Source of the DNA: a virus | Virus record (IMG/VR): IMGVR_UViG_3300030333_002064 | Span: 741 to 21,596 of that record | Length of the DNA: 20,856 bases | Reading direction: 5' to 3' (one strand) | Shown here: positions 3,623 through 4,943 of the stretch, piece after piece | Position numbering within the stretch: position 1 is the first letter of the stretch | How the letters are laid out: each line of letters begins with the position of its first letter | Notes under the pieces: model-generated | The model's input: the letters and a program-made list of their open reading frames with translations, nothing else | Database searches by the model: none | Told to the model about the DNA's origin: nothing | Made by a program: the position numbers and the translations under genes

Positions 3623-3740
3623 GAAAACACAAGCTAAACATGATAGAAGGGTTAACGCTGCTAATGCAGTAAAACATAACCCATCATTAAGAAAGAAAAT
3701 AATGTTAAACGCTGCACAAATTTACATTAAAGGAATATAA
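3615..3740 (+). CDS. Small basic hypothetical protein (41 aa)
   Basis: The function is not recognised. This is a short, Lys/Arg/Asn-rich peptide that begins [12 protein letters not shown] and looks helical throughout, with no membrane segment. The start overlaps the psbA stop by eight bases and is preceded by a perfect AAGGAGGT at 3602-3609 with six-base spacing, so it should be translated well from the psbA message. The stop codon overlaps the next start as TAATG (3738-3742). The basic charge could fit RNA or DNA binding, but nothing identifies a partner. Strong initiation signals and tight coupling at both ends make it likely to be real. Confidence 0.72.
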
Positions 3741-3796
3741 TGCCTAAAGGAAAAGGTACTTACGGTACCAAGAAAGGGAGACCCCCTAAAAAATAA
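3740..3796 (+). CDS. Tiny basic peptide MPKGKGTYG-type (18 aa)
   Basis: An 18-residue peptide, [18 protein letters not shown], starts in the TAATG overlap with the preceding gene and ends at TAA 3794-3796. Six of 18 residues are Lys and one is Arg. The C-terminal GRPPKK resembles an AT-hook core (GRP), which in larger proteins contacts the DNA minor groove. From memory, very similar MPKGKGTYG peptides recur in marine phage genomes. That recurrence, together with coupling to an expressed upstream gene, supports coding despite the size. The role is unknown; DNA or RNA binding is only a guess from charge and the GRP core. Confidence 0.6.
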   Translation: MPKGKGTYGTKKGRPPKK

Positions 3797-3855: not shown

Positions 3856-4017
3856 ATGTCTAACAACAAATTTGCAACTGAACCACAAATCGAAGTAGTA
3901 GATCAACCTTACTTTGAGAATGCTGAACGTGTCAACGGACAGCTAGCTATGCTTGGATTCATTGCAGCAATCGGTTCCTATATATTTACTGGACAGATTA
4001 TACCTGGAGTATTCTAG
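3856..4017 (+). CDS. hli: High-light-inducible protein (one-helix chlorophyll-binding)
   Basis: A 53-residue single-helix member of the LHC/Hli superfamily. These proteins bind chlorophyll and carotenoid in the thylakoid membrane, associate with photosystem II assembly and repair, and dissipate excess light energy. The diagnostic motif is present at residues 24-34 (ERVNGQLAMLG), with the Glu, Asn and Met/Gly positions intact. It is followed by the hydrophobic helix (31-45) and the C-terminal signature TGQIIPGVF seen in marine picocyanobacterial and cyanophage Hli proteins. The N-terminal 20 residues are polar. It lies downstream of psbA, the usual cyanophage arrangement, and should protect photosystem II while phage D1 is inserted. 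No Shine-Dalgarno precedes the start, which is common in marine picocyanobacteria. Confidence 0.95.
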   Translation: MSNNKFATEPQIEVVDQPYFENAERVNGQLAMLGFIAAIGSYIFTGQIIPGVF

Positions 4018-4059: not shown

Positions 4060-4130
4060 CACACCACGTCCGTTCATCCCTTCGGGGGACGCATGAAACC
4101 ACATCATGGAACGGGGGTGTGGTACTGGAG
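4060..4130 (+). promoter_or_regulatory. Glutamine-II riboswitch (Downstream-peptide motif)
   Basis: RNA element with the core of the glutamine-II aptamer, which binds L-glutamine. P1 is CCGTTC (4070-4075) with GAACGG (4109-4114). P2 is a UCCC stem capped by a UUCG tetraloop (4077-4089). P3 is CATGA (4092-4096) with TCATG (4104-4108). The strings GTTCATCC, GGACGCATGA and TCATGGAACGGGG match the family consensus as I remember it. An extra outer stem, CACACC (4060-4065) with GGTGTG (4116-4121), extends P1 toward the ribosome site. A GGAG at 4127-4130 lies seven bases before ATG 4138 of a 17-aa ORF, the arrangement that named the motif. Ligand-dependent control of translation is the expected mechanism; the sign of regulation is inferred, not shown. 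A covariance-model search would settle the assignment. Confidence 0.85.
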
Positions 4131-4137
4131 TATTACA

Positions 4138-4191
4138 ATGACTGTAAAACTAAGGTATCGTGGTGTTGAGTACACAAAAACTACAAAGTAA
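4138..4191 (+). CDS. 17-aa YRG peptide downstream of the riboswitch (DUF4278-like)
   Basis: A short ORF, MTVKLRYRGVEYTKTTK, whose start is set by GGAG at 4127-4130 with seven-base spacing. The L-x-YRG-x-x-Y pattern resembles the N-terminal core of DUF4278, a small cyanobacterial family of unknown function. The Downstream-peptide RNA motif is known for preceding ORFs of 17 aa upward, so this peptide is at the bottom of the described range. It is either a functional micropeptide or a regulated leader for the OMP-like gene, whose ATG is 10 bases after its stop. An in-frame ATG at 4093 lies within the aptamer (P3) and has no ribosome site, so I reject it as the start. Family assignment is from memory and pattern, not a search. 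Confidence 0.7.
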   Translation: MTVKLRYRGVEYTKTTK

Positions 4192-4201
4192 TTAACTTAA
4201 C

Positions 4202-4558
4202 ATGAAAAAAATTGCACTTGCTCTAGCGGCATCTCTCGCTTCCGCACCTGCAATGGCTGGCGTTTATGTAAACGTCGAGTCTAACGCATCTTATACAGGC
4301 GGCGATTATACTTCCCGTACTACCGATCTACACGTAGGCTATGAAGGAGACGTAGGTGATCTTGGATACTACATTCAAGGTGGACCAGCTCTCGTTAATG
4401 GCGACGCTGTTGACGGAACCAGTGAGTTCTCAGGTAAGCTCGGAGCATCCGTAGCTGCATCTGATAACCTAGATGTGTATGGTGAAGTATCATTCATCAC
4501 TGATGAAGATGCTGACAACGCATACGGCACCAAAATAGGTGCTAAATATAACTTCTAA
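4202..4558 (+). CDS. Putative phage-encoded outer-membrane beta-barrel-like protein
   Basis: A 118-aa protein with a textbook Sec signal peptide: MKK, a hydrophobic Ala/Leu core (4-16), and an AMA cleavage site before Gly20. The mature part (about 99 aa) alternates polar and hydrophobic residues in Gly/Tyr-rich strands (for example VGYEGDVGDLGYYIQGG, 45-61) and ends in Phe after KIGAKY. Such a terminal aromatic is the beta-signal read by the BAM machinery. It resembles small porin-like domains but is too short for a standard eight-strand barrel, so it may be a partial or oligomeric barrel. It likely sits in the host outer membrane or periplasm. Possible roles are superinfection exclusion, altered permeability or receptor masking; all are inference. 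It has no Shine-Dalgarno, lies 10 bases after the riboswitch peptide and may share its control. Confidence 0.75.
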   Translation: MKKIALALAASLASAPAMAGVYVNVESNASYTGGDYTSRTTDLHVGYEGDVGDLGYYIQGGPALVNGDAVDGTSEFSGKLGASVAASDNLDVYGEVSFITDEDADNAYGTKIGAKYNF

Positions 4559-4560
4559 TT

Positions 4561-4719
4561 ATGGCACATCAAACAGCAGGTATGACGGCTTATGTCACTA
4601 CGTTATCACCTGAACCTGAAATAAAAGATCCGGTTGATACCAACCCTAGTGACTACCAACCACCTGGTGTTGATGAAGAAAGAGAACCTCAATCTTTGGA
4701 AGAAGCTCTCACAGGTTAG
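4561..4719 (+). CDS. Acidic hypothetical protein (52 aa)
   Basis: The function is not recognised. It starts two bases after the OMP-like stop and begins MAHQTAGM. The first four residues are the same as those of the capsid protein (MAHQNSAL). The rest is acidic and Pro-rich (residues 17-48, with DPVDTNPSDYQPPG near 23-36), probably disordered, and ends in LEEALTG. There is no signal peptide or membrane segment. The 59-aa membrane ORF overlaps its last 47 bases in another frame. The shared N-terminus suggests a small virion or assembly protein related to capsid expression, but this is weak. The compact fit after 4558 supports coding. Confidence 0.6.
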   Translation: MAHQTAGMTAYVTTLSPEPEIKDPVDTNPSDYQPPGVDEEREPQSLEEALTG

Positions 4720-4852: not shown

Positions 4853-4898
4853 TTGGCTTTGGCCCAGTACGCTGGATACCCTTAGCCGTCTAGACGGT
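4766..4898 (+). promoter_or_regulatory. Multi-hairpin structured leader of the capsid gene
   Basis: A run of paired elements precedes the capsid start. GTCGA..TCGAT hairpin: 4766-4787, with one bulged G. TGCAC (4801-4805) pairs with GTGCA (4812-4816). AAGGGTA (4816-4822) pairs perfectly with TACCCTT (4877-4883) and closes a junction. That junction holds GAGA/TCTC (4823-4826 with 4842-4845) and CCAG-TACG-CTGG (4864-4875, a UNCG-type loop). CCGTCTAGACGG (4886-4897) is a perfect 12-base palindrome. The first part overlaps the 3' half of the 59-aa ORF. Possible roles are mRNA stability, RNase III processing or ribosome recruitment for the capsid gene, which lacks a Shine-Dalgarno. I do not recognise a known RNA family. 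Confidence 0.45.
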
Positions 4899-4943
4899 GG
4901 GAAAGACCACAACAAAGCGCAAAAAATTTCAGCTGAGAACGTA

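Follow-up and report, generated by a model that had tools for sequence, protein, structure and literature searches.

A glutamine-II riboswitch in T7-like cyanophages with a candidate expression platform built partly from micro-ORF codons

RESULTS

Genomic setting of the element

The virus record is 21.6 kb long, and the window (the whole stretch of 20,856 nucleotides analyzed here) was drawn from within it. The genes follow the order of a T7-like cyanophage: portal, scaffold, psbA, hli, a riboswitch element, a beta-barrel gene, the major capsid gene, and the tail tube genes (Table 1). The first-pass annotation had placed the element between hli and a putative outer-membrane protein, and this placement was borne out, with the product of the beta-barrel gene passing the Pfam threshold of PF24653 (27 bits). 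The small open reading frame (ORF) that comes after the beta-barrel gene belongs to a family whose members, in other phages, lie directly after the stop codon of the micro-ORF described below or overlap it. We also observed a tiny ORF at 3740-3796, between psbA and hli, whose C-terminal codons recur just 5' of the aptamer in three other phages (L024, L026, and L060).

Table 1. Positions of the features around the riboswitch element in the window
Feature	Position	Strand	Remarks
hli	3856-4017		Upstream neighbor of the riboswitch element
P0 5' strand ACACCACG	4061-4068	+	Just 5' of the aptamer; exact complement of 4159-4166, 8 bp
Glutamine-II aptamer (RF01704)	4068-4123	+	cmscan 57.8 bits; model R2 76 bits
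Pseudoknot (PK) 5' strand CGTTC	4071-4075	+	Pairs with 4109-4113; no variation among 24 diverse phage copies; equivalent to crystal residues C1-C5 (PMC6698751)
P1 stem-loop	4077-4089	+	97.9% of cells paired; 2 pairs changed on both sides
CGC third strand	4090-4092	+	Invariant; predicted to contact the ligand, as C17-G18-C19 of the crystal structure (PMC6698751)
P2 helix	4098-4103/4118-4123	+	Encloses PK 3' strand 4109-4113; compensatory changes in 6/6 pairs; 90.3% of cells paired
P4 hairpin	4121-4159	+	Shine-Dalgarno (SD) sequence in stem, ATG in loop; 4121-4123 common to P2
SD sequence GGAG	4127-4130	+	Separated from the ATG by 7 nt; most copies have this sequence or a variant
Micro-ORF MTVKLRYRGVEYTKTTK	4138-4191	+	17 codons; single YRGxxY repeat of DUF4278 type
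P0 3' strand CGTGGTGT	4159-4166	+	Arg-Gly-Val codons of the micro-ORF
Beta-barrel outer-membrane-like cyanophage protein	4202-4558	+	PF24653, E 9e-45, 152.4 bits
Small ORF MAHQTAGM...	4561-4719	+	Begins 2 nt past the beta-barrel stop

Farther downstream, the leader of the major capsid mRNA (4853-4912) carries a second conserved element, consisting of TTGGC..GCC, a hairpin, and GGATACC..GCCGTCTAGACGGTGGGAWAGACCACA. Its core, GTCTAGAC, was present in 56 of 71 cyanopodovirus capsid loci, and compensatory pairs were found in one hairpin. A search of this element against Rfam returned no match beyond chance, even at E 10. It is possibly an uncatalogued structured RNA, a promoter, or a processing site.

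The aptamer belongs to the glutamine-II class

A cmscan search of the whole window matched RF01704 (Glutamine-II) over the full model (positions 1-60) with 57.8 bits and an E value of 7e-12, against a gathering cutoff of 33 bits, and no second Rfam match was found. The same segment scored 76 bits with R2, a covariance model built in this analysis. The conserved strings on which the first-pass annotation had based its assignment to this class are all present, GTTCATCC at 4072-4079, GGACGCATGA at 4087-4096, and TCATGGAACGGGG at 4104-4116. The P1/P2/P3 junction that it had described gives way to a pseudoknotted fold made of P1, P2, and PK. Across 24 diverse copies, 95.6% of the cells in these three helices were paired, and the covariation score was 0.359, compared to 0.116 after shuffling.

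Are the bases that contact the ligand also retained? Mapping the crystal numbering of Huang et al. (PMC6698751) onto the window by hand, we found all of them (C1, G2, C17-C19, G35, and G36-G41) at 4071-4075, 4090-4092, and 4108-4114, and they were invariant in the 24 phage copies. We could identify every pair of the pseudoknot (C1:G40 to C5:G36), the C17-G18-C19 third strand, and the C19:G41 long-range pair, and the linker, CATGAAA, matches the crystallized RNA exactly (PMC6698751). Such invariance of the pocket across very divergent phages requires selection for binding. Judged by its sequence, with the model score, the pseudoknot and contact bases, the covariation of P1 and P2, and a short downstream ORF all in place, the element belongs to the glutamine-II riboswitch class, also called type 2 glutamine or Downstream-peptide, and is encoded by a phage.

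The element is widespread at the same locus of T7-like cyanophages

The class had been thought, in the first-pass annotation, to occur in marine picocyanobacteria and one phage. Picocyanobacterial copies do exist, but the figure of one phage was too low: 18 of 24 named T7-like cyanophage (cyanopodovirus) genomes exceeded the Rfam cutoff and 1 more contained a partial match, compared to 0 of 14 control genomes with a match to RF01704. An exact-pattern scan of IMG/VR yielded at least 120 stretches with the aptamer. Among the matches listed, 117 of 120 stretches carried T7-like structural genes related to those of the window, and an ORF with the YRGxxY core followed the aptamer in 118 of 120. The survey of cyanopodoviruses that had been proposed as a check was also carried out blind to the aptamer, by searching for the capsid protein. 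Among the 41 loci with at least 700 nt upstream (the window included), 38 contained the aptamer, ending 217 to 1,089 nt upstream of the capsid gene. The micro-ORF is present in P-SSP7, NATL2A-133, 9515-10a, P-SSP10, and others; the records that we viewed annotate no gene over it.

Two individual loci are worth recording. One (L120, aptamer on the minus strand at offset 836 of the reverse complement) is a natural deletion in which the aptamer is retained, the micro-ORF is gone, and the sequence runs straight into the capsid leader element. The other (L155/G009), filed as the Porticoccaceae MAG NAT127, holds a phage-type copy with the CGTA 5' motif and a long micro-ORF, and is probably a phage contig binned with that MAG.

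This class of aptamer also precedes DUF4278 ORFs in the picocyanobacterial hosts, so that the element could be recently captured, nonfunctional host DNA. We regard this explanation as highly improbable: it is refuted by the conservation of the element at the same location in most T7-like cyanophages, and the aptamer helices contain compensatory changes. In addition, the sampled phage copies conserve a CGT(C/A) directly ahead of the PK strand that is absent from the sampled host copies. At that place many host copies instead have an NtcA-like box, GTAN8TAC, followed by runs of T or A. This box, which ends about 5 nt before the aptamer in many of the picocyanobacterial loci (L124-L203), was not seen in the sampled phage copies; its position next to the aptamer suggests that transcriptional and glutamine control may be stacked in the hosts.

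The micro-ORF encodes one DUF4278-like repeat and is probably coupled to the next gene

The ribosome site and the 17-residue ORF noted in the first-pass annotation were both located (Table 1). Y, R, and G of the motif and its second Y were constant over 160 copies, while the codons varied synonymously, including CGN-to-AGR changes for arginine; as the copies were gathered by the YRG motif, the informative part is the second Y together with the synonymous variation. The window micro-ORF gave no Pfam match and thus lies below the DUF4278 (PF14105) cutoff of 25.3 bits. Its longer phage relatives scored 18 to 21 bits, also below that cutoff, and the two host proteins tested against DUF4278 scored 35 to 42 bits. 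By motif, the predicted product is a one-repeat relative of DUF4278 and not a formal member.

In its residues, the micropeptide resembles a single repeat of the DUF4278 proteins whose expression the same riboswitch class controls in picocyanobacterial hosts. Host proteins such as PMM1846 and the IF17 N terminus share the YRGxxY repeat and the upstream riboswitch class; they are mostly 55 to 65 residues long with two or three repeats, whereas the phage ORF in the lineage of the window usually has 13 to 20 residues and one repeat.

In 25 distinct copies, the micro-ORF stop lies 0 to 17 nt before the beta-barrel start (10 nt in the window). In other phages, a small ORF of the MAHQ type begins no more than 4 nt after the micro-ORF stop or overlaps it as TAATG. 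The 0- to 17-nt spacing suggests translational coupling, and we consider the beta-barrel gene to be probably coupled to the micro-ORF. The first-pass annotation had proposed that the phage could tune the whole photosynthesis/structural segment to the nitrogen (glutamine) state of the host; the anatomy points instead to the micro-ORF and its coupled gene. In 87 "far" cases the micro-ORF has no coupled gene, and the capsid gene comes next.

A hairpin made partly of micro-ORF codons encloses the start codon

How might the aptamer reach the ribosome site? Folding of 97 copies revealed that the SD sequence pairs mainly with downstream sequence and not with the aptamer; sequestration by the aptamer itself, a mechanism that we considered, was not seen in that set. 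The resulting hairpin, P4, combines the SD region with codons 1 to 7 of the micro-ORF. At least six pairs enclosed the ATG in 80 of 80 copies with a short micro-ORF, compared to 34 of 50 with a long one and 20 of 43 host copies, and many of the long copies are without an obvious SD sequence and P4. Synonymous recoding weakened P4 (mean z of -2.0), with the native codons among the best 5% for 43 of 70 copies; in the window, the predicted energy was -13.2 kcal/mol for the native hairpin versus -6.4 kcal/mol after recoding. Leaders swapped between copies also weakened it, from -10.7 to -7.7 kcal/mol (predicted).

The two arms of P4 vary together. Of 22 distinct arm pairs, 21 had a Watson-Crick pair between the base after the shared GGUA and the base before the Tyr codon, and all four combinations (C-G, U-A, G-C, and A-U) occurred. 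Pairing of the arms occupied 48 of 66 cells, compared to 34.0 ± 2.9 when the arms were permuted, a control that, like the one used for P0 below, retains the shared ancestry among copies. The covariation score was 0.290 versus 0.134 after shuffling.

We also examined held-out copies. A capsid-leader scan gave only 5 short copies, and two further scans supplied previously unused ones; GGAG and ATGAC(A/T)GTAA were required in one of the two, a restriction that favors the short type and leaves the tested arms free. P4 enclosed the ATG in 65 of 77 held-out copies, and 32 of 45 arm cells were paired versus 22.1 ± 2.7 after permutation (maximum of 2,000 permutations, 31).

The base of P4 uses G4121-G4122-U4123, which also form the 3' end of P2, so that the two helices are mutually exclusive there. 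The predicted energies of the P4 and P2 states are about 3 kcal/mol apart, as computed by folding programs that leave out the pseudoknot. Even minus the shared bases, P4 is predicted to retain about -7.7 kcal/mol; a hairpin this strong without them means that the switch could be leaky or work otherwise.

A helix flanking the aptamer also uses micro-ORF codons

The first-pass annotation had proposed an outer stem, CACACC (4060-4065) with GGTGTG (4116-4121), as a possible part of the switch. We rejected this stem: four of its nucleotides belong to the 3' strand of P2, which it excludes, and it is not conserved, its complementarity over 118 copies being no better than permuted (5.48 versus 5.63). 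The 5' strand pairs instead with 4159-4166, forming P0. In short copies P0 averaged 5.35 bp, compared to 4.49 ± 0.10 bp permuted, and in held-out copies 5.86 bp, compared to 4.97 ± 0.15 bp (maximum, 5.57). Both sides had changed at several pairs, and the number of paired cells was above all 500 shuffles; the total number of pair types in P0 was not. The helix is partial, with a nearly universal CG core and outer pairs that fail in about a third of copies. On this pairing pattern, P0 explains in part why phages conserve CGT(C/A) immediately ahead of the PK 5' strand. A different pairing, CGTCC with GGACG, was discarded as the cause of the phage 5' CGTC because P1 variants turn GGACG into GGAACG or GAGCG with the upstream sequence unchanged.

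P4 and P0 could also be structures of the micro-ORF mRNA that tune its translation or decay regardless of ligand, the aptamer making a modest contribution. In keeping with this explanation, the inner part of P4, which does not overlap P2, is strong and conserved in its own right. However, the base of P4 invariably lies against P2, whose 3' strand it uses, and selection for binding is evident in the invariant pocket. We therefore view ligand-independent tuning as quite unlikely.

DISCUSSION

The best explanation of these data, and one that we think probable, is a translational ON switch, in which glutamine promotes P2 at the expense of P4 and so switches on the translation of the micro-ORF. At low glutamine, P4 would be fully formed and the SD sequence hidden. 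At high glutamine, the ligand would lock the pseudoknot and P2; P4 would lose its base, falling from about -13 to about -8 kcal/mol (predicted), and ribosomes could then initiate on the micro-ORF. In lineages like that of the window, they may reinitiate on the adjacent beta-barrel gene. A structural study has proposed, for the class, a ligand-stabilized pseudoknot that competes with an SD-occluding structure (PMC6698751). In the phage RNA, P4 offers, from its sequence and position, a concrete candidate for such an SD-occluding structure.

The direction of the switch could be the reverse. A glutamine-binding aptamer might act as an OFF switch, or gate another step (RNA stability or expression of the capsid gene) rather than the opening of P4. 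The 87 loci with the capsid gene next and no coupled gene would fit such a role, as would the deletion locus in which the aptamer, without a micro-ORF, leads directly into the capsid leader. Yet the type 2 switch that has been studied in Prochlorococcus is an activator, in which glutamine turns expression on (PMC6316151), and P2 and P4 share bases, so that ligand should weaken P4. We consider an OFF switch or a different gated step unlikely, and retain the translational ON switch as our working explanation.

A broader proposal can be put forward tentatively, and we lean against it as a whole. Most T7-like cyanophages may sense host glutamine by an RNA that has its regulatory helices, P4 and P0, in the coding sequence of a DUF4278-like micropeptide with one repeat; about 130 nt would then be sensor, switch, and gene product at once. 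The peptide and the coupled membrane protein would then be made only in nitrogen-replete hosts and redirect host nitrogen metabolism.

Neither the aptamer class nor the micropeptide is new in principle, and glutamine riboswitches have been seen in phages before (PMC2864571, PMC9004378, PMC9602691). The window shares with RF01704 the pseudoknotted aptamer, all the ligand-contact bases, and a short downstream ORF with a DUF4278-type core; the phage copies differ in having a P4/P0 platform made from ORF codons. Phage-borne examples have been reported from Melnitz, Mosig, and AG-345-P14 and from T4-like cyanophages, and the Melnitz riboswitch, unlike that of the window, is of the glnA type and lies beside tmRNA (PMC9004378). 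The literature that we searched yielded no account of this locus in T7-like cyanophages and none of the P4/P0 platform; one could exist beyond it. An expression platform made partly of micro-ORF codons thus appears to be new.

The crystal structure of this riboswitch class has no expression platform, and the present analysis offers a concrete one in which codons double as regulatory helices. The element is carried, unannotated in the records viewed, by cultured phages (P-SSP7, NATL2A-133, 9515-10a, and others) and is thus directly testable. If the proposed switch is true, lytic viruses that are common in the ocean maintain a sensor of nitrogen immediately before the capsid region, through which a virus could monitor the nitrogen status of the cell that it infects.
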